Below, one piece after another: positions 1,842-15,105 of a stretch of DNA of 64,000 nt; the first letter of the stretch is position 1; the number at the start of each line of letters is the position of its first letter. Source of the stretch: Thermoplasmatota archaeon (lineage in GTDB: Archaea > Thermoplasmatota > Thermoplasmata > UBA10834); the NCBI GenBank assembly GCA_018818785.1, contig JAHIRF010000004.1:1-64000 (forward strand), given 5' to 3'. A model generated the notes under the pieces. That model did not search any database. It was not told the DNA's origin and was given only the letters and a program-made list of their open reading frames with translations. A program made the position numbers and the translations under genes.

Positions 1842-2816
1842 GTGTTCAGCGAGAAAGGACGGGCTATCTGGTTCCTCGCACTCTTGTCTCCAATCACCGC
1901 CGAGCTCCTTTCAGGCTCGTCTCCACCCATCGAGTTCTTCCACCCATTCGGGTTCCTGCTCCTCCTCGGTATGTACGGTGCTGGAGTCCTGCTGATCCGT
2001 GAACTCACTGTGATCTGGCGGAAGGGTTGGGCGACCACGATTGTGCTCGGTTTCGCGTATGCCGTGGCCGAGGAAGGTGTCGCGGTCAAGAGCTTCTTCG
2101 ATCCTGGCTGGGCCGATCTGGGTGCGCTGTCTGAGTTTGGACGCTTCGCCGAGGTGAATTGGATATGGGCGACCTGGCTGAGCATCTTCCATTCAATGAT
2201 CAGCATCTGCCTGCCGATATTGATCTTCAACCTCTGGTATCCCCATCTCAGGGAAGAACGGATTCTGGTCCCGAGGCGATTCAAGCTGGTCGGCGCGATA
2301 TTTCTCATGGACCTCGCATTCGCTGCGATCGTGTTCGTGTCGATTCAGGACTACTACCCCCCGCCTCTGCAGTACGTCGCGTCCATTCTCACGACCATCG
2401 TCTTCGTGCTCATCGCTAGAGAGTTGCCAATCGATCTGGTGAGCGCCAGGCACGAGTTGCCGACATGGAGTCCGTGGCGATTCATCGCATTTGGATTCGC
2501 ACTCATACTCCTGGATTTCATCATCGCATCTTCGGCACTGTCCGCTATGTCCGCTCTAGTGACCATCGTGACCCTTTTGATGGTGAACGCGGCCGCTCTG
2601 TTGCTGCTCCAACATAAACTCGGCAGGTGTCAGAACTCATTGCACAAGGCGAACCTCGCGCTCGGGCTCGTCCTATTCTTTATCGTCCTGGCCCCGATCC
2701 ATGAGGTGTCCGATGGGATGATCGGCATGTCTGTTGTTGGTTTATGCTATCTGATGTTCATGATTGTTCTGATCAAGAAGGCGCGGCCCAGGGTAGAAAG
2801 TGTCAACCCTTTCTGA
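1842..2816 (+). CDS. Polytopic membrane protein, possibly CAAX-protease-like
   Basis: This 324-residue protein is strongly hydrophobic with about eight to nine predicted membrane segments. A segment near residues 72-80 reads AYAVAEEGV, an EE pair inside a membrane helix, followed by a later HS pair (LSIFHSMIS). That faintly recalls the EExxxR...H arrangement of CPBP/Abi (CAAX-like) intramembrane proteases but is too incomplete to assign. The start is GTG 1842; an AT-rich box at 1811-1820 sits 26-30 nt upstream, implying an essentially leaderless message. Function not recognised. Confidence 0.6.
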   Translation: MFSEKGRAIWFLALLSPITAELLSGSSPPIEFFHPFGFLLLLGMYGAGVLLIRELTVIWRKGWATTIVLGFAYAVAEEGVAVKSFFDPGWADLGALSEFGRFAEVNWIWATWLSIFHSMISICLPILIFNLWYPHLREERILVPRRFKLVGAIFLMDLAFAAIVFVSIQDYYPPPLQYVASILTTIVFVLIARELPIDLVSARHELPTWSPWRFIAFGFALILLDFIIASSALSAMSALVTIVTLLMVNAAALLLLQHKLGRCQNSLHKANLALGLVLFFIVLAPIHEVSDGMIGMSVVGLCYLMFMIVLIKKARPRVESVNPF

Positions 2817-2835
2817 GAGCTCGATGAGAAACATG

Positions 2836-2911
2836 TGGCGCCGTCGAACGGGTTCGAACCGTTGACCTTCCGCTTAACAGGCGGACGCTCTACCGACTGA
2901 GCTACGACGGC
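2836..2911 (-). tRNA. tRNA-Asn (GTT)
   Basis: On the minus strand GCCGTCG pairs with CGACGGC, followed by discriminator G and an encoded CCA (2836-2838). The anticodon loop is CTGTTAA, giving anticodon GTT for Asn. T arm AACGG/CCGTT and D arm are intact and there is no intron. It ends about 20 nt beyond the stop of the upstream plus-strand membrane-protein gene, on the opposite strand. Confidence 0.95.
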
Positions 2912-3015
2912 ATGCTTGGCTCGCAGGCGCAGTTAACCTGACCAGTTTAATAAGCCTTTTGCCACTGGGGCCATCTCGGACACGTTCAGAACCATTGCGC
3001 GGGAGCCTGGACCGA

Positions 3016-3333
3016 CTATTCGATGGACACTCGCAGCTCATTGACGGTAGAGCTCATCGTCTCCAGGATGTCCTTCAGATGGTCGAGAAAGTCCTGTATC
3101 TTGTCGGTCGTGATCGCCCCGTCCGGCGAAGGTTCGATCAATCCCTCTTGCTCCAGGATCCTGAGAGAATACCTGACCTTGTGCTGTGGATACTCCAGCA
3201 TCTCCGCCAGGCGTATGATGCCTATGGGCTCGTTGTCCATGATCGCCTTGAGCATCGCAACATGCCTCTGGAGTAAATCTATCTCGGCCTCGATCTTGCT
3301 CGTCAGAACAGATTTGCCTGCCTTTCCTTTCAT
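3016..3333 (-). CDS. Winged-helix transcriptional regulator
   Basis: This protein of about 105 residues has an N-terminal coiled helix (near 10-35), a winged helix (IIRLAEMLEYPQHKVRYSLR, then a wing through EPSPDGAITT), and a C-terminal helix suited to dimerisation. ATG 3333 is preferred to TTG 3348 because GAAGGA lies 5-6 nt ahead of it. The gene is divergent from the ABC exporter at 3478, and a perfect palindrome at 3360-3373 lies in the shared spacer, so it plausibly regulates itself and the exporter. That link is inferred from position. Confidence 0.7.
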   Translation of the reverse strand: MKGKAGKSVLTSKIEAEIDLLQRHVAMLKAIMDNEPIGIIRLAEMLEYPQHKVRYSLRILEQEGLIEPSPDGAITTDKIQDFLDHLKDILETMSSTVNELRVSIE

Positions 3334-3359
3334 TTGGATTCCTTCCAACGATAATCAGA

Positions 3360-3373
3360 CACGACTTGTCGTG
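3360..3373. promoter_or_regulatory. Palindromic operator candidate between regulator and ABC exporter
   Basis: CACGAC-TT-GTCGTG is a perfect 6-bp inverted repeat with a 2-nt centre in the 144-nt divergent spacer, 27 nt upstream of the regulator start. Size and symmetry suit a dimeric winged-helix protein. Confidence 0.5.
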
Positions 3374-3445
3374 CTACATGATAACACTTGAGTACCTTAA
3401 AGCGTCTGAAGAAACCACTGAGTTGGTAACGGCGCGACCAAACTT

Positions 3446-3477: not shown

Positions 3478-4209
3478 ATGGCTGTTATAGACGCAAAAGA
3501 CCTGGTGATGGATTTTGGTGGAATGAAAGCCCTCAATCAGGTCTCGCTTACGGTCGAGAGAGGCGACCTCTATGGTTTCTTCGGGCCGAATGGTGCAGGC
3601 AAGACCACATTGATCCGGATACTGACAGGTCAGTTGAAACCCACGTCAGGGACGGTCGACGTGTTGAGGGTGGATGTGATCAAGAACCCTATCAAGGCCA
3701 AAGAACTGGTCGGCATCGTTCCAGAGGTGGAGAGTCCTCCGACCTATTTGACCGCCTATGAGTACCTTTATTTCGTGGGGAAGGTCCGGAAAGTCGACAA
3801 TCTAGAGGATCGTATTGACAAGTGGTTGTCCTTCTTCGATCTGGAGAGTAAGAAGGGGACGATCTGCAAGGATATGTCGAAGGGTATGCGCCAGAAGCTC
3901 ATGCTCGCATCGGCATTCATGCATGAGCCAGAGCTTCTCCTCCTCGATGAACCCTTCATAAACCTCGATCCGATCTATCAGAAGCTGCTCAGGGAACATC
4001 TCGAAGAATATGTGTCGAAGGGGGGGACCGTGTTCCTCTGCTCACACATTCTTGAGATAGCCGAGAGACTGTGCAACAAGCTGGCGATAGTGAATCTCGG
4101 AAGGGTCGTCGTGCAGGGCAGGAAGGACGAACTGGTCAAAGAAGATGACGACCTCGAACGCCTGTTCATGCGTGTGATCGGAGGGGATACTCTACGAAGA
4201 CCCTCCTGA
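3478..4209 (+). CDS. ABC transporter ATP-binding protein (ABC-2 exporter type)
   Basis: This 243-residue nucleotide-binding domain hydrolyses ATP for the membrane partner encoded immediately downstream. Walker A is GPNGAGKTT (near residue 36-44), the signature motif is MSKGMRQK (the usual LSGGQ is degenerate, as in many archaeal ABC-2 ATPases), Walker B is LLLLDEP (near 158), and the switch histidine lies in FLCSHIL. It belongs to the CcmA/NatA-like drug or antibiotic export group. The stop at 4209 is followed after 5 nt by the permease ATG. The divergent winged-helix gene is a likely regulator. Substrate cannot be read from sequence. Confidence 0.92.
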   Translation: MAVIDAKDLVMDFGGMKALNQVSLTVERGDLYGFFGPNGAGKTTLIRILTGQLKPTSGTVDVLRVDVIKNPIKAKELVGIVPEVESPPTYLTAYEYLYFVGKVRKVDNLEDRIDKWLSFFDLESKKGTICKDMSKGMRQKLMLASAFMHEPELLLLDEPFINLDPIYQKLLREHLEEYVSKGGTVFLCSHILEIAERLCNKLAIVNLGRVVVQGRKDELVKEDDDLERLFMRVIGGDTLRRPS

Positions 4210-4214
4210 AACTG

Positions 4215-5660
4215 ATGCTCAAAGAGGAGTTCCGGACACATACATCCTATTCCGGTCAGGACAGGTTCCTCAGCTTCCCCATCTTCGTGTTCTTCCTCGC
4301 ATCGGTGGTCGCGCTCACCCTGGATAGGATGCTCGAGACCGTCTCGTTCAGGCAGATGATCGATCTCGCGCACCTTTCAGCATTCATATATGGTCTCAGC
4401 GTCGGCACATTCGGCATGATGGGGCGGCAGTACCTCGAACGACGTTATGGCCGGAGCAACTACCTGATCGCCATGCCGTTCCTTCTTCCGATCTCCTTCA
4501 AGAAGACCTTCCTAGGAATATACCTCCGCGATGCCATCTTCTACATCGTCCTTCTGCTGATCCCAGCGACGTGCGGCTTGCTCCTGGCGTCACCAGTGAT
4601 GGGATATTCATACGTGAGCATCGGCCTCTTCTTCTCGGCGATCTTGATGACTTTCCTGCTCGGCCTTTCGATGAGTTTTCTGGCGTCCGTAATCTACATC
4701 AGGAACATCAGATGGTTCGCTGCCTTCACCGGCCTGATAGTCTTCCTCTTCTCACTTCACGGGGCCTTCAGGCTGTTGCCTCTTGAGGCGTTGATCCCAT
4801 CTCTGGGCTTCCAAACGTCTGTTCAGCCATTCGGCTCGGAAATCGGCTCGGCTGCGATATTTGCGGCAGCATCCATTCTCGCGACGGTGGTCATGACTGT
4901 GCTATCGTACACCCTGGTCGAGATCAGGATGACCATGTCAACGCAATCATATCCTGAGACTCTGCCCAGGTATCACAATCGAATCCCGTTCTTCAAGGGA
5001 CTTTCTCGTACACTCGCTGCAAAGGAGTTCGTGGACCTCCGCAGGAGCGGGACTCTCGCCAAAATGACATTCTCTTTCATCCTTCCATTGCTCTTCCTCT
5101 CGTTCACGGCCTGGTTCGTGAACTACGGCCTCTCCATTCCCGTTGGATTCAACACTGTGTTCTACGCCGCGATGGTAGGATTCATAGGGGTGCTGATGTA
5201 TAGCTGGCTCAATAACATCGACCTAGCCGAATATTACTCTCTGATCCCCGTGACCGTTCCTCAACTGATCCGCGTGCGGGTCGCAGTCTTCCTCATCCTG
5301 ACCTTGGGAATCTCCGCCGTGTTCGTCGTCGCCATCGCCATATTGAACCATGAGACCAGGTATCTCTGGCTCGCTCTGATAGTCATGTTCGTGACCTCCT
5401 TGTACATGGTGTTGGTCCTGGCATACCTCACAGGACTCAAGACGAACACATTCCTCTTCGACACAAAGATCCTGGCCCGATTCAGCATAATGTCATTCAT
5501 GCCGGACGTGTGCCTTGCCATACTGTCCTTCAGCATCGCCTACGATTGGACGGTGGCCTTGGCGGGCCTTTCCTTGGTGCTCTCCTCGATGTTCATAACT
5601 TCTTTGATCCTCTACAAAGGGATCGAATCGAAATGGTCAGGCACACCTTTCGGTGAATGA
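4215..5660 (+). CDS. ABC-2 type membrane permease
   Basis: This 481-residue protein has about twelve hydrophobic segments in two blocks (near 25-240 and 290-470) separated by a charged stretch around 250-280. It has the size and layout of fused ABC-2 permeases that partner NatA-like ATPases. The ATG starts 5 nt after the ATPase stop, so the two are co-transcribed and probably translationally coupled. No substrate-specific motif is visible. Family assignment rests on hydropathy and context more than on a signature motif. Confidence 0.78.
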   Translation: MLKEEFRTHTSYSGQDRFLSFPIFVFFLASVVALTLDRMLETVSFRQMIDLAHLSAFIYGLSVGTFGMMGRQYLERRYGRSNYLIAMPFLLPISFKKTFLGIYLRDAIFYIVLLLIPATCGLLLASPVMGYSYVSIGLFFSAILMTFLLGLSMSFLASVIYIRNIRWFAAFTGLIVFLFSLHGAFRLLPLEALIPSLGFQTSVQPFGSEIGSAAIFAAASILATVVMTVLSYTLVEIRMTMSTQSYPETLPRYHNRIPFFKGLSRTLAAKEFVDLRRSGTLAKMTFSFILPLLFLSFTAWFVNYGLSIPVGFNTVFYAAMVGFIGVLMYSWLNNIDLAEYYSLIPVTVPQLIRVRVAVFLILTLGISAVFVVAIAILNHETRYLWLALIVMFVTSLYMVLVLAYLTGLKTNTFLFDTKILARFSIMSFMPDVCLAILSFSIAYDWTVALAGLSLVLSSMFITSLILYKGIESKWSGTPFGE

Positions 5661-9819: not shown

Positions 9820-10000
9820 CCTGCATCCCTATCGACCGTATCGTGCTATTCCGGTTAAATAGTTTCTCTTGGTCCAGTATTCTCCTCTCAAGACTCCGTC
9901 TTGAGCCGTGAAACACACCATTACGTGGCAATGGTTAAGTACTGATTATGCAATCGCTATTGTAGGAAAAAGGCACAAGCGTGCAATTACGGTGGAATAC

Positions 10001-10414
10001 ATGTCATCAGAACTAGAACAGATACGACTGAAGAAGATACAAGAACTGATCAAGGCGGCCGACTCCACGCAATCTGGAGGAAATGGCTTCCCAAGTGCAC
10101 CGGTCGTGGTTACGGACGAGAATTTCGAAGAGACGATCAAGAAGTATCCGAACGTCGTCGTTGATTGCTGGGCTCCGTGGTGCGGTCCTTGCAGGTCGCT
10201 CTCTCCGACGATCGATGCCATGGCCAAGGACTATACCGGGAAAGTCGTCTTCACGAAGCTGAACACTGATGAGAACATCAATGTGGCGAGCAAGTTCAGG
10301 ATAATGAGCATTCCGACCCTGCTCTATTTCAAGAACGGTTCTTTGGTCGATAAGACCGTTGGCGCTCTCCCAAGACCGATGCTTGAATCACAACTGAAGA
10401 AACACTTGGCGTGA
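10001..10414 (+). CDS. Thioredoxin-family protein
   Basis: This 137-residue protein has an N-terminal helical extension of about 30 residues (SELEQIRLKKIQELIKAAD), then a complete thioredoxin fold with active site WAPWCGPCR (near 57-65) and the cis-proline loop SIPTLLYFKNG. It reduces disulfides in the cytoplasm. The extension is common in archaeal thioredoxins. ATG 10001 follows GGTGGA at 9991-9996; a TATA-like GGTTAAGTAC lies near 9933-9942. A T-rich terminator follows. The gene appears monocistronic. Confidence 0.92.
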   Translation: MSSELEQIRLKKIQELIKAADSTQSGGNGFPSAPVVVTDENFEETIKKYPNVVVDCWAPWCGPCRSLSPTIDAMAKDYTGKVVFTKLNTDENINVASKFRIMSIPTLLYFKNGSLVDKTVGALPRPMLESQLKKHLA

Positions 10415-10450
10415 GACCAAGACAAAACTCAGGATAACCAACTTCCCCCA

Positions 10451-10464
10451 TTCTTTTTTTATTT
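10451..10464 (+). terminator. T-rich terminator after thioredoxin
   Basis: TTCTTTTTTTATTT begins 37 nt after the thioredoxin stop. Runs of T in the non-template strand are the normal archaeal termination signal, and no hairpin is needed. It also separates this gene from the OsmC promoter at 10492. Confidence 0.5.
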
Positions 10465-10491
10465 CCGACAAATAGCTGCAGCTCCGATGGG

Positions 10492-10501
10492 ATATTTTAA
10501 A
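10492..10501 (+). promoter_or_regulatory. TATA box of the OsmC gene
   Basis: ATATTTTAAA lies about 36 nt ahead of ATG 10533, so initiation should leave a leader of roughly ten nucleotides. Confidence 0.5.
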
Positions 10502-10532
10502 TCCAGAATATCCTCTTGTCAATCCGATCAAG

Positions 10533-10946
10533 ATGGATTTCGAGACCATCGTGGAGTTCGCAGGCGATTTTCCGGGGACGATGCGTTGTCAGAATGGCAT
10601 GATCGTCGAGTACTCACCACCCGTGGAACTCAACGGAATGAAAGGTCCCATGACGCCTGAGGATGCGTTCATTGGTGCGGCCAATATGTGTTACCAGATA
10701 GTCTTCAGATCGATTGCAGCAGGTCTGGGACTCAAAGTGCTCAGCTACAAGTGCAGGGCCGTTGGTGATCTGCAAACCGTCGAGGGCTCCAAGAGGTTCG
10801 TCGTGATCACGATGTATCCAGAGATATCATTTGAGCATGGTTCGAACATGGCGAACCTAGAGAAAGCCCTGGAGGCAACCAAGCGGAAATGCCTTGTCAC
10901 CAATTCGATGTCATGTGAAGTGAGAATCGAACACCGTGTGATCTGA
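10533..10946 (+). CDS. OsmC/Ohr-family protein
   Basis: This 137-residue protein has the OsmC fold: an N-terminal beta sheet (EFAGDFPGTMRC), the first redox cysteine in a helix (GAANMCYQIVFRSIA, near residue 54), and the second in KRKCLVTNSM (near 117). Family members reduce organic hydroperoxides using paired cysteines. The spacing fits, though the Arg and Glu that polarise the peroxide are not obvious. The stop is 22 nt before the amidotransferase start, so the two may share a message. Confidence 0.82.
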   Translation: MDFETIVEFAGDFPGTMRCQNGMIVEYSPPVELNGMKGPMTPEDAFIGAANMCYQIVFRSIAAGLGLKVLSYKCRAVGDLQTVEGSKRFVVITMYPEISFEHGSNMANLEKALEATKRKCLVTNSMSCEVRIEHRVI

Positions 10947-10968
10947 GTCATTGAACGAGGTGAATTCA

Positions 10969-11706
10969 ATGTGCAGAATGATTGGTGGTGTGTTCAGAGA
11001 CAAGTTCCCGATCGGGGCCCTGAAGGATCTTCAGCATGTGTCTGAGTTAGGGGAAGTGCCAGATAGAGGAACCGAAGAACTCGGTCATAGGGATGGCTGG
11101 GGGATTGTCACATTCTCATCTGGGTCTTCGAGACTCTTGGGCAAAAGCGAACGGCCTATGCATTTGGACCCATCGTTCGATGCAGCCCTCGAGGACGTTG
11201 CTAAGCTGGAAGGTCCGAACATTCTGATCGCTCATGCTCGTAGAGGTTCCGAAGGCAGTCTGTCATTGGCAAACACGCATCCGTTCATATCTGATGGTAT
11301 CGTCTTCGCCCATAACGGCACCGTCAAGAAATTCCATCCGAACACCTCGAGGAATCCGTTGGGCCAGACGGACAGCGAGCGGGTGTTCATGACTCTCCTC
11401 GACCGCTTGGATGAGAAGAAATCCATGAGGTCCGCCATCGAAACCATGGTGAAGGAGGACGTCAGAGGCCACGAATTCACCGGTCTGATGCTGTTGATAT
11501 CTGATGGTAAGAGGCTATATGGCTATAGGGGGTACTCGCAGGAAAAGGATTCCTGGTACTATACCATGAATGTCTCGAAATGCCCTGATAATGTGATGGT
11601 GTACCAGCAGACGCATATGGGATACGCGGCCCCGATCGACGAGGTCAAGAACGGTGAATTGGTCACGGTGGACCTCGACTTGAATGCTGAGATCATTCAC
11701 CTCTAG
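10969..11706 (+). CDS. Class II (Ntn) glutamine amidotransferase
   Basis: About 245 residues. The protein starts MCRMIGG, so removal of Met exposes Cys2 as the N-terminal nucleophile that releases ammonia from glutamine. Other family elements are HRDGWGI (near 45), HARRGSEGS (Arg that binds the glutamine carboxylate), THPF and FAHNGTV. The fold is GatB/PurF-like, related to YafJ/EgtC. ATG 10969 is fixed by the nucleophile position and by CGAGGTGA at 10957-10964. There is no synthetase domain, so the acceptor is unknown. Its TAG overlaps the stop of the convergent HTH gene. Confidence 0.88.
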   Translation: MCRMIGGVFRDKFPIGALKDLQHVSELGEVPDRGTEELGHRDGWGIVTFSSGSSRLLGKSERPMHLDPSFDAALEDVAKLEGPNILIAHARRGSEGSLSLANTHPFISDGIVFAHNGTVKKFHPNTSRNPLGQTDSERVFMTLLDRLDEKKSMRSAIETMVKEDVRGHEFTGLMLLISDGKRLYGYRGYSQEKDSWYYTMNVSKCPDNVMVYQQTHMGYAAPIDEVKNGELVTVDLDLNAEIIHL

Positions 11707-12224
11707 TTCCTCGACTTCCGCGCAGCCAGTCGAATTGCTTCCGTGACACTGTCTCTGGGCATGATGGTTGCTATCGGGACATCTACGACCTTCTCTATCG
11801 TGTAGCTTACTATGGGCGCACAAACGACGGCTATCGCACCATCTCTCTCCGCCCTTATCGCAGCGACGATCGCATCCTCCACAGTCGATGCTGGATACTC
11901 TCTGACCCTAACACTTCCATTGCCTATCTGCACGGAACGTTCAACGACCTCTTCCAGTACGTGCCTCGCGGCTATGACTGCGATGAATTTCCCCGCCTTT
12001 CTGCCATCTGCTTCTCTGACAGTTGATAATATCCGCCTGAGGACATCCAGGCTCGGTGCACGGTCCTCGTTGACGATCTTGTAGATTGTGCTTGGAGATA
12101 CCCCTGCTCGCCTTGAGAACTCCTGAACTGTCAAGCCGATAACTTCCAGTACCTCGGCCAATTCTTTTCTGAGCGCATCGTCCGACTGCATGGATGCGGA
12201 CAGCAGTCTCCTGTAATTGTCCAT
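11703..12224 (-). CDS. XRE-type HTH transcriptional regulator with C-terminal sensor-like domain
   Basis: About 173 residues. Residues 20-75 form a lambda-repressor-like HTH (LTVQEFSRRAGVSPSTIYKI, then APSLDVLRRI). The C-terminal half (100-173) has alternating strands and helices (VEDAIVAAIRAERDGAIAVV...VVDVPIATIMP), a layout seen in an archaeal predicted-regulator family. ATG 12224 is preferred to TTG 12257 because the TATA-like GTATAAATA on the minus strand (about 12257-12266) would place initiation just upstream of it. A palindrome overlapping that box suggests autoregulation. It is divergent from the ABC importer operon, a probable target. Confidence 0.75.
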   Translation of the reverse strand: MDNYRRLLSASMQSDDALRKELAEVLEVIGLTVQEFSRRAGVSPSTIYKIVNEDRAPSLDVLRRILSTVREADGRKAGKFIAVIAARHVLEEVVERSVQIGNGSVRVREYPASTVEDAIVAAIRAERDGAIAVVCAPIVSYTIEKVVDVPIATIMPRDSVTEAIRLAARKSRN

Positions 12225-12261
12225 GTATTGTCCTAAGTGTAGTAATATCTCGGTCAATATT

Positions 12262-12342: not shown

Positions 12343-13452
12343 ATGGATAGGAGAGTCATAATCGCCATAACGATCGCAGCGATAGTGGTGATCGGGATAG
12401 TCGGAGCGACCCTGCTCCTCAGCAAGAATGCATCAGGATCGGTCTACTACATCACCCTGGCTCCAAGCAATATGAATGCTGCTTTGGTATCTGGGCAGAT
12501 CGACGCATACATCGCCTGGGAGCCATATGTTTCCGATTCGGTCGTCGGTGGTGCGGGCGAGATACTGCTCCTGTCTGAGGACATGATGCCCAATCATCCT
12601 TGTTGTATCATCGCAGTGTCGAATGATTTCCTTGGATCGACAGATGGCATCGGACTATCCGAGCGTTTCCTGAAAGCCCACATGGACGCGACGGACTGGA
12701 TGGTCGACGCCTTGCAGGATCCTGAGGGCGAGAATTACACTCTGCTCGTCACCCTGGCGATGGATTTCACATTGAGGAGCGAATCGGTCGTCAAAGCTGC
12801 ATTGGATCATATGATCTATGGTTATGCGATGGGGACGACTTTCACATCAGCACTCGAGGAGTTCACTCAGATGTACATAGATACCAACATGACGACTGAT
12901 GCCGCCCTTGAGGAGCAGGGCTACTCTTCCGTGAGCGACTTCGTGAACGAATATGTCGACCAATCATTGCTAGAAGGCGCAGCTGACATCGAACCGAGCT
13001 CAACCATCCTGAATCCCGACTCGCCGATCAGACTCGGATTCCTGAACGGTGATCTGCACCAGCTCGCGCAATTCGTTGCCAAGGATATGCGCATAATGGG
13101 CGACCAGACGATGTTCGAGATGTATGGGGTCAATGTGGTCAATGCGATCGGCGCACCATTTGCCAACGGCGGCGCTGTGATGACTCAGTTCGCAGCCGGC
13201 AACGTGGATATTGGCTACCTCGGCGCTCCACCTGCGTTGCTTCAACACCTGAATGCGGGTGTCGATGTCACGATCATCTCACAGGCGAACAGTGAGGGGA
13301 GCGGGCTAGTGGTCAGAGCGGATTCAGGGATAACAACCGTCGCAGACTTGGTCAACAAGACCGTCGCCACTCCTGGCGAATCTTCAATACAGTTCCTTCT
13401 CCTGAAGATCACTTTGCAGAAGGCGGGCTTGGGTCTTGCGCTCAAGACCTGA
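12343..13452 (+). CDS. ABC substrate-binding protein (nitrate/sulfonate/taurine type) with swapped halves
   Basis: This 369-residue membrane-anchored binding protein has one N-terminal hydrophobic segment (residues 5-27). Residues 34-215 match the C-terminal half of the SsuA/TauA/NMT1-like family (LAPSNMNAALVSGQIDAYIAWEPY, then DMMPNHPCCIIAVSNDF). After a linker, residues 227-366 match the N-terminal half (IRLGFLNGDLHQLAQFVAKD, then GNVDIGYLGAPPALL and VATPGESSIQFLLLK). The normal order is the reverse, so the protein looks circularly permuted about the inter-lobe crossing and stops (KAGLGLALKT) where the other half would begin. All expected parts are present once. The permease and ATPase follow. 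Natural permutation, recombination between tandem copies or misassembly are all possible. Confidence 0.78.
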   Translation: MDRRVIIAITIAAIVVIGIVGATLLLSKNASGSVYYITLAPSNMNAALVSGQIDAYIAWEPYVSDSVVGGAGEILLLSEDMMPNHPCCIIAVSNDFLGSTDGIGLSERFLKAHMDATDWMVDALQDPEGENYTLLVTLAMDFTLRSESVVKAALDHMIYGYAMGTTFTSALEEFTQMYIDTNMTTDAALEEQGYSSVSDFVNEYVDQSLLEGAADIEPSSTILNPDSPIRLGFLNGDLHQLAQFVAKDMRIMGDQTMFEMYGVNVVNAIGAPFANGGAVMTQFAAGNVDIGYLGAPPALLQHLNAGVDVTIISQANSEGSGLVVRADSGITTVADLVNKTVATPGESSIQFLLLKITLQKAGLGLALKT

Positions 13453-13504: not shown

Positions 13505-14329
13505 ATGGGGAATATCCTGTCGCAGATGACGAACCTACTCCGCGATAATGGGAGAACGATAGTCCTAGGACTCCTGTCGATCTGCGTATTTATCCTCAGC
13601 TGGCATGCATGCGCTTGGTATCTCGACTATACTGGGTCAGGCTACGCAGAGTACATACCCTATCCATCGGTTGTCGGCGAAGCGTTCATCGATTCCTTCG
13701 TGACTAAGGATTCATCGACCCAACTATACATGCACGACCACATCATTTCGAGTCTTAAGCGCATCGTCCTTGGATTCGGGCTCGCCCTGGTGATTGCTCT
13801 TCCCGCAGGTTTGCTGATGGGGGCGATGAAGGGTGCTGAAGCCATCGGCAAGCCGATAGTGGAGATGTTCAGACCCATTCCTCCGCTCGCCTGGATTCCA
13901 CTGTTCATCCTCGTATTCGGCATAATATGGGGGCCGATTTGGATCGTCTTCCTGGGCATATTCTTCCCGATACTACTCAACGTCGTGTTCGGTGTGAAGA
14001 GCGTCGATACAGTGCTCATCGATGCTGCGAAGACGCTCGGTGCTGGAAGGATAGACATATTCTCCAAGGTCATCCTTCCATTCGCATTGCCCTATCTCAT
14101 GACGGGTATCAAGGTCGGTTTGGGCATCGGATGGATGTGCATCGTGGCCGCTGAAATGCTGGGCGCCGTTGGCGGAGGCGTAGGCTATTACATCTATGCG
14201 TCATCAAACGCTAACAACTACGAATACATGTATGCGGGAATGGTGGTCATCGGCATACTCGGTGTTCTGACGACTGGCATCGCTGGACAACTCGAAAGGA
14301 GGGTTTACAGATGGATGGGCATGAAGTGA
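13505..14329 (+). CDS. ABC transporter permease (SsuC/TauC-like)
   Basis: About 274 residues with six membrane segments. The cytoplasmic EAA loop, which docks on the ATPase, reads DAAKTLGAGRIDIFSKVILP (near 178-197). The RPIPPLAWIPLFIL segment is typical of the nitrate/sulfonate/taurine permease family. ATG 13505 has GGGGGG just upstream; ATG 13493 is an alternative. The end overlaps the ATPase gene by 19 nt, showing a tight operon with the preceding binding protein. Substrate is not determined. Confidence 0.88.
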   Translation: MGNILSQMTNLLRDNGRTIVLGLLSICVFILSWHACAWYLDYTGSGYAEYIPYPSVVGEAFIDSFVTKDSSTQLYMHDHIISSLKRIVLGFGLALVIALPAGLLMGAMKGAEAIGKPIVEMFRPIPPLAWIPLFILVFGIIWGPIWIVFLGIFFPILLNVVFGVKSVDTVLIDAAKTLGAGRIDIFSKVILPFALPYLMTGIKVGLGIGWMCIVAAEMLGAVGGGVGYYIYASSNANNYEYMYAGMVVIGILGVLTTGIAGQLERRVYRWMGMK

Positions 14330-15105
14330 ATATCTCGCTGAAGGACCTCTCCAAGGAATTCTCAAAGGACAAGAATCGAGTCGTCGCGGTCTCCAACTTC
14401 AACCTCGAAGTGGATGAAGGCGAGTTCGTATGCCTGCTCGGACCATCGGGTTGTGGAAAGACTACCGTCCTCAGGATTGTGGCGGGCCTCGAGTCAAAGA
14501 CTTCCGGAAATGTGCGGATAAACAACAAGGAAGTCAAGAACGCCGGGCCAGATCGCGGCATGGTGTTCCAGGAATTCGCTCTGTTTCCATGGAGGAGCGC
14601 CAGGAAGAACATCGAGTTCGGACTGGAAGTGAAGGGCGTTCCGGAAGAGAAGAGGAAGGAGATATCCACGCGTCTTCTGGACCTCGTAGGTCTCAATGGC
14701 TTCGAGGACGCTCACCCCAAACAGTTATCCGGTGGCATGAAACAACGTGTGGCGATAGCCCGCGCACTGGCTAACGATCCCGATGTGCTTCTGATGGACG
14801 AACCATTTGGGTCGCTCGACGCCCAAACCAGGAACCTGATGCAAAAGGAACTGCTCAGGATATGGCTCGCCGAAAAGAAGACAGTGCTATTCGTGACCCA
14901 CTCTGTTGATGAAGCGGTTTACCTGGCCGACAAGATCGTGGTCATGACTGCAAGGCCTGGGACCGTGAAGAAGATCATCCCGATAACCATCCCTCGTCCG
15001 AGGGACCGCACTGATTCCAAATTCATCGAGATACGGGGTCACGTCCTTACCGAACTCGAAACTGAATTCGAAAAGGCCAGGATGAAAGAGTTATCTCCTG
15101 AATGA
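14311..15105 (+). CDS. ABC transporter ATP-binding protein (SsuB/TauB-like)
   Basis: This 264-residue ATPase energises import with the preceding permease. Walker A is GPSGCGKTT (near 44-52), the Q loop lies in MVFQEFALFPW, the signature is LSGGMKQR (near 139), Walker B is VLLMDEPFGSLD (near 159) and the switch His is in FVTHSVDEA. All catalytic elements are intact. The start ATG 14311 lies inside the permease 3' end, preceded by GGAGGG. It is the last gene of the importer operon. Confidence 0.93.
   Translation: MDGHEVNISLKDLSKEFSKDKNRVVAVSNFNLEVDEGEFVCLLGPSGCGKTTVLRIVAGLESKTSGNVRINNKEVKNAGPDRGMVFQEFALFPWRSARKNIEFGLEVKGVPEEKRKEISTRLLDLVGLNGFEDAHPKQLSGGMKQRVAIARALANDPDVLLMDEPFGSLDAQTRNLMQKELLRIWLAEKKTVLFVTHSVDEAVYLADKIVVMTARPGTVKKIIPITIPRPRDRTDSKFIEIRGHVLTELETEFEKARMKELSPE

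Follow-up and report, generated by a model that had tools for sequence, protein, structure and literature searches.

Natural Circular Permutation of a Predicted ABC Importer Binding Protein, Probably Repeated in Place within an Archaeal Operon Family

Introduction

Most of the natural circular permutations known in proteins go back to one ancient event each. Their natural occurrence is well established, and two models, duplication and fission/fusion, describe how they arise (PMC3320104). DNA methyltransferases represent the classic family, in which several natural circular permutations occur together with duplicated intermediates (PMC3320104). Among ABC transporters, TpMglB-2 from Treponema pallidum is a natural circularly permuted glucose-binding protein, designated 'Type Ic', that keeps the two-lobe fold (PMC4990184). 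It was the only natural permuted ABC binding protein retrieved by a search of the literature accessible without subscription.

This work analyzes a window of 64,000 nucleotides from a Thermoplasmatota archaeon (contig JAHIRF010000004.1), which encodes a protein predicted from its context and homology to be the binding protein of an ABC importer. Like TpMglB-2, it represents a natural permutation of a tethered ABC binding protein. However, TpMglB-2 has a type I fold, belongs to a sugar family unrelated in sequence, and displays one permuted order, whereas four cut sites and doubled forms occur here. All sequence matches of the window protein are type II NitT/TauT proteins, which sets it apart from the type I (cluster B) sugar fold and from 'Type Ic' proteins. 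DNA methyltransferases offer a parallel, in that a single superfamily contains one fold in several cyclic orders, along with duplicated intermediates; in contrast, the protein here is a different one, and its orders differ within one archaeal operon family, down to a pair that is 73% identical.

In sequence, the closest described systems are the SsuA/TauA/NrtA-type proteins (NitT/TauT; TIGR01728, PF13379/PF09084), which share all segments and the operon partners with the window gene, although the chain order of the latter is cyclically shifted. The window protein belongs to Pfam NMT1_2 (PF13379; 77.3 bits against a gathering threshold of 24.7). It falls below the cut-off of NCBIfam SsuA_fam (TIGR01728; 163.5 bits) both in its natural order (117.6 bits) and when rotated (128.8 bits), whereas canonical relatives reach or approach this value (L129, 202.5 bits; L119, 181 bits). 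The nearest named model for the adjacent ATPase is SaoA of SaoX/SaoP/SaoA (NF040735, NF040733, and NF040729), the transporter of the Sec-assisted organometallic (SAO) system (PMC13188914), whose models also rank near the top for the binding protein and the permease. Nevertheless, all three importer proteins score below the curated cut-offs (300, 295, and 360, respectively), with 56.4 bits in natural order and 66.4 bits rotated for SaoX and 288.2 bits for SaoA, and the order of the binding protein is permuted. A type II permutation with four cut sites, doubled forms, and canonical orthologs in the same operon family appears to be undescribed in the accessible literature.

Chain Order of the Window Protein

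The gene encodes a hydrophobic N-terminal helix followed by the canonical C-half (VYYITLAPSNMNAALVSGQIDAYIAWEP ... HPCC), a short linker, and the N-half (IRLGFLNGDLHQLAQ ... IGYLGAPPALL ... TPGESSIQFLLLKITLQKAGLG), after which the stop codon is found. Four segment HMMs (1, 2, 3a, and 3b), numbered by canonical order, were used to delimit these parts. The features of the gene and its operon neighbors are the following:

12343-13452, plus strand: binding-protein open reading frame, ATG start, 369 amino acids
12343-12426, plus strand: N-terminal membrane anchor, residues 1-28 (AlphaFold2 helix 3-26; low confidence just after)
12439-12564, plus strand: segment 3a, residues 33-74, opening the canonical C-half and part of lobe 2, VYYITLAPSNMNAALVSGQIDAYIAWEP (segment HMM, 80 bits)
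12568-13008, plus strand: segment 3b, residues 76-222 (HMM match 77-222), remainder of the canonical C-half (segment HMM, 213 bits; conservation)
12595-12606, plus strand: invariant H-P-C-C within segment 3b, residues 85-88 (conservation)
12985-13023, plus strand: linker between the ancestral C- and N-termini, approximately residues 215-227 (circular-scan optimum; unstructured 214-228 in the model)
13012-13266, plus strand: segment 1, residues 224-308, opening the canonical N-half (lobe 1) and containing the invariant D237 and H239 (segment HMM, 129 bits; conservation)
13267-13440, plus strand: segment 2, residues 309-366, continuation of the canonical N-half and here the end of the protein (segment HMM, 95 bits)
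13505-14329, plus strand: ABC permease (BPD_transp_1; PF00528, E 1.9e-21), frame open from 13436, likely start ATG 13505
14311-15105, plus strand: ABC transporter ATPase (nearest named model SaoA, 288.2 bits, cut-off 360)
11703-12257, minus strand: divergent HTH (XRE-type) regulator (PF01381)

Public profiles match the protein in reversed order of their halves. Residues 33-121 correspond to positions 153-239 of Pfam NMT1_2 and residues 259-363 to positions 17-117 of Pfam NMT1; likewise, residues 38-120 match positions 135-218 of SaoX and residues 256-364 match positions 21-128 of SsuA_fam. At the DNA level, SaoX positions 133-218 precede positions 3-109. The segment HMMs give the order 3a (33-74), 3b (77-222), 1 (224-307), and 2 (309-365), each matching once.

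A circular scan was then run against an HMM of 333 profile positions built from the 23 canonical-order relatives only. The natural chain reached a best single-domain score of 161 bits (profile 34-165), and rotation to a start at residues 215-227 raised it to 296 bits over profile positions 34-330, so that the scan optimum coincides with the predicted linker. NMT1_2 matched the rotated copy in one stretch (24-231 to 23-239; 89.5 bits) and the natural chain in two (77.3 bits). All family segments are therefore present once and in one frame, in cyclic rather than linear order, as expected of a natural circular permutation.

A first-pass annotation of this DNA had proposed that an ABC substrate-binding protein is apparently circularly permuted, with both halves intact once and in frame, behind a membrane anchor and ahead of permease and ATPase genes. 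Profile order, segment HMMs, and the circular scan bear out the permutation, which affects a single, complete binding protein with two lobes; the single match of each segment HMM agrees with the second point, and the helix at residues 3-26 and the two downstream frames are as described. The halves are swapped as it stated, at somewhat different boundaries: residues 33-222 and 224-366 instead of 34-215 and 227-366.

Conservation of the Permuted Order

The order of the window protein, 3a-3b-1-2 (type A), was found in 71 full-length sampled loci, the window gene included, which come from Thermoplasmata, Halobacteriota, and Methanofastidiosia. Within the taxonomic family and order of the window's own genome, all sampled loci share it except G020, and it is also present in many other Thermoplasmata. 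Single-contig genomes (G005 and G007) carry it, as do large single contigs in Halobacteriota. Permuted gene pairs are under purifying selection (pN/pS 0.09-0.39), so a pseudogene reading was rejected; the chain order is conserved by descent and the gene is under selection.

These data bear on the concern that the locus is misassembled, or that two normal binding-protein genes in tandem were collapsed into one. A good many genomes come from fragmented metagenome assemblies, and one relative (L114) does carry tandem binding-protein genes. Against this, identical in-frame junctions recur in dozens of independent genomes from several phyla, single-contig ones included, the sequence is conserved with pN/pS far below 1, and a genome search found only one such binding protein in the window's genome. 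Recurrence and selection refute misassembly for type A, to which we assign practically no probability at this locus, and what lies here is a single gene that does not stem from a misassembled tandem repeat; type D, described below, is seen in one genome. In L114, a normal-order NMT1-like gene (2540-3418) lies directly upstream of a permuted one (3480-4529) in the same operon. Two type A genes, L048:2587-3682 and L015:833-1993 (both minus strand), contain one late frameshift each, attributable to sequencing error or recent decay.

Diversity of Chain Orders and Operon Context

The first-pass annotation had suggested a search for homologs with the same swapped order. This order proved common among relatives, and the search went beyond it, as the normal order, further cut sites, and fused doubles were also recovered. 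The canonical order 1-2-3a-3b was represented in the rotated set by 23 loci, from Thermoplasmata (L045, L046, L047, and L054), Halobacteriota (L119 and L121-L128), and Desulfobacterota (L129-L138). Among 247 sampled Desulfobacterota genomes no permuted members were seen, and the relatives listed there are canonical. Type B (2-3a-3b-1) occurs in 27 loci of a Thermoplasmata family designated f6, and type C (3b-1-2-3a) in seven loci of the same family, with segment 3a at the extreme C-terminus (15-36 bits with the f6 model). Type D, cut within segment 2, was found in one Halobacteriota locus, L120. One genus (g64) mixes orders, with two canonical genomes (G155 and G276) and one of type A (G369).

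Furthermore, three f6 genomes encode doubles, in which two complete type B units lie head to tail in one frame of 752-757 residues behind one membrane anchor:

L039:2659-4932, double-unit frame of type B units
L040:2668-4941, double-unit frame of type B units
L041:2971-5229, minus strand, double-unit frame of type B units

A B-B double holds every cyclic order as a sub-stretch. It is the intermediate that permutation by duplication predicts, and the presence of B, doubles, and C within f6 fits a path B to B-B to C. The family also includes a 903-residue type A protein (L042:1507-4218, minus strand, contig C31 of G300), in which the HPCC motif is lost (GYPSEVI) and the C-terminal part shows apparent fibronectin-III-like repeats followed by a membrane helix. 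Judging from these features, it is perhaps a surface protein derived from an importer subunit.

Permease and ATPase genes lie directly downstream in 52/71 type A, 12/27 type B, 6/7 type C, 3/3 double, and 16/23 canonical loci, counts that are affected by contigs ending early. A divergent HTH regulator is present upstream of 27 type A and 5 canonical loci. The window's regulator (11703-12257, minus strand) has a conserved C-terminal region and is divergent from the operon in many archaea; it is a candidate dedicated regulator of the importer operon. Thioredoxin, OsmC-like, and amidotransferase-like genes occupy positions 9908-11706 of the window, upstream of the operon, and thioredoxin- and OsmC-like homologs are also found near the canonical-order locus L054. 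Apart from the regulator, permease, and ATPase, operon neighbors differ from one lineage to another (L10e, fumarase, asparaginase, cytochrome c3, and EF-G) and gave no clue to the substrate.

Ligand Site, Fold, and Anchor Position

After rotation, 135 sequences of all orders align over 322 columns with no leftover or missing segments. The putative pocket residues H85, C87, H239, G276, G294, P297, G319, and S320 are invariant in 135/135 sequences, in every order, and W59, D237, and Q350 are nearly so. The distances calculated for each half separately show a correlation of 0.90, a value reached by 0/999 permutations, which indicates that the halves have a common history.

The invariant H-x-C-C and D-x-H, together with the SaoA-like ATPase, led us to consider a link to the SAO system; with all curated cut-offs missed, the link is retained only as a lead. 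Similarly, the location of both motifs near the putative cleft is at best a lead toward a thiophilic or metal-containing ligand.

Structure prediction, a further check suggested at first pass, confidently modeled the natural window chain as a single protein (AlphaFold2 mean pLDDT 94.7, pTM 0.88), with an unstructured stretch at 214-228 between a helix (208-213) and a strand (229-232). A natural type B chain gave pLDDT 92.3 and pTM 0.86. Of 330 positions aligned after rotation, 91.5% agree in secondary structure between the A and B models, and none shows a helix/strand conflict; agreement is nearly equal unrotated (89.8%), and since both types share most of their order, this comparison is a weak test. 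In a structure search, the type B model matched solved SsuA, NrtA, and 3un6 over the shared part. Foldseek, which aligns in sequence order, returned weak whole-chain matches for the type A model (TM to query ≤0.38), dominated by glutamate receptors at an rmsd of about 28-33 Å; being order-constrained and weak, they were dropped as evidence of kinship. Given the confident single-fold model and a secondary-structure order that matches, the permuted protein probably shares its fold with canonical members.

The point at which the anchor enters the protein differs from the initial proposal, which placed it at a hinge crossing. The window protein is cut between family positions ~128 and ~133, which we take to be part of the lobe 2-forming stretch in SsuA-type proteins. 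Given this cut and SsuA-type topology as known for the family, the anchor would enter within lobe 2. The cuts of types C and D lie closer to hinge crossings than that of type A. A hydrophobic N-terminal anchor or signal is kept in 71/71 type A, 27/27 type B, and 7/7 type C proteins and in 3/3 doubles.

Origin of the Permutations

The chain order has changed repeatedly in this family. Mapping the order label onto the tree of rotated binding proteins requires at least 10 changes, and the independent permease and ATPase tree requires 9, although both counts may be inflated by whole-operon transfer. Monophyly was rejected by AU tests for the canonical members (p 1e-5) and for type A (p 3e-51), so a single origin is ruled out for both orders. 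In Thermoplasmata, the canonical forms that branch within type A may be survivors or reversals.

The youngest event is recorded by type D L120 and canonical L123, which are 73% identical and differ by blocks of 605 and 278 bp swapped in place, while flanks, signal peptide, and permease remain collinear, with a DNA identity of about 71-78%. Inside L120, the linker reads SGTPKVKD, which is similar to TGTPGVKD, the native linker at the N-terminus of L123. In-frame duplication followed by trimming, with the doubles as its intermediate, is the likely route to this swap. On such a route, the mature coding region would first be duplicated in tandem and in frame, as in the double-unit genes of relatives, and then trimmed at a new point, leaving the signal or anchor and the downstream genes untouched. 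A short linker would then connect the ancestral ends, and new ends would be opened inside lobe 2; with the N-terminal membrane helix kept or regained, the protein would be tethered via lobe 2. It should still close on its ligand in the manner of a Venus flytrap and hand the ligand over to the permease and ATPase of the neighboring genes. For the window gene itself this route is likely by analogy, since the known doubles are B-B and not canonical doubles leading to A.

Two other routes are less supported than duplication and trimming. Excision of the mature coding region as a circle, reinserted opened elsewhere without a duplicated intermediate, would account for the exact block swap and collinear flanks of L120 and L123, and remnants of deleted copies beside L120 were looked for and not found. 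However, no mechanism is evident for such short circles, the doubles of related genomes offer a simpler intermediate, and the likeness of the linkers is predicted by either route and does not discriminate between them; we regard this direct exchange as rather improbable. Slightly less probable still is fission and fusion, by which two formerly separate polypeptides, or halves of two distinct binding proteins, would have been joined in reversed order. It is an accepted route for permutations in general (PMC3320104), but here the halves share one history, full doubles exist, and permuted and canonical forms occupy the same operon. Moreover, intact half-length genes were not found, the split gene of L048 being one frameshift within a type A gene.

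A separate question is whether the permutations are functionally neutral drift or adaptations of the tether point. The same pocket residues in all orders and the coexistence of permuted and canonical forms in genus g64 speak for drift, whereas repeated cuts at a small number of loops and the long persistence of the orders suggest favored entry points; we consider the chances evenly balanced.

Conclusions

We hold with high confidence that the window gene encodes a permuted, presumably working binding protein of a NitT/TauT-like importer, from a family repeatedly re-permuted in place, probably by duplication and trimming. With less assurance, we favor a broader reading in which one orthologous archaeal importer operon is a permutation hot spot, its binding protein reopened in no fewer than four ways, with some nine or more in-place switches by duplication and trimming that left the ligand site unchanged and moved the tether from lobe to lobe. 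For annotators, the finding explains why profile searches break such proteins into two hits, with scores under the cut-offs. These natural proteins are also ready-made permuted binding-protein scaffolds, of a kind that biosensor engineers construct by hand. Related genomes, often in the same operon, hold this protein in canonical form, permuted at four cut sites, and duplicated, and one pair is still 73% identical; the long-standing question of the origin and functional weight of permutations is now directly testable with natural orthologs.
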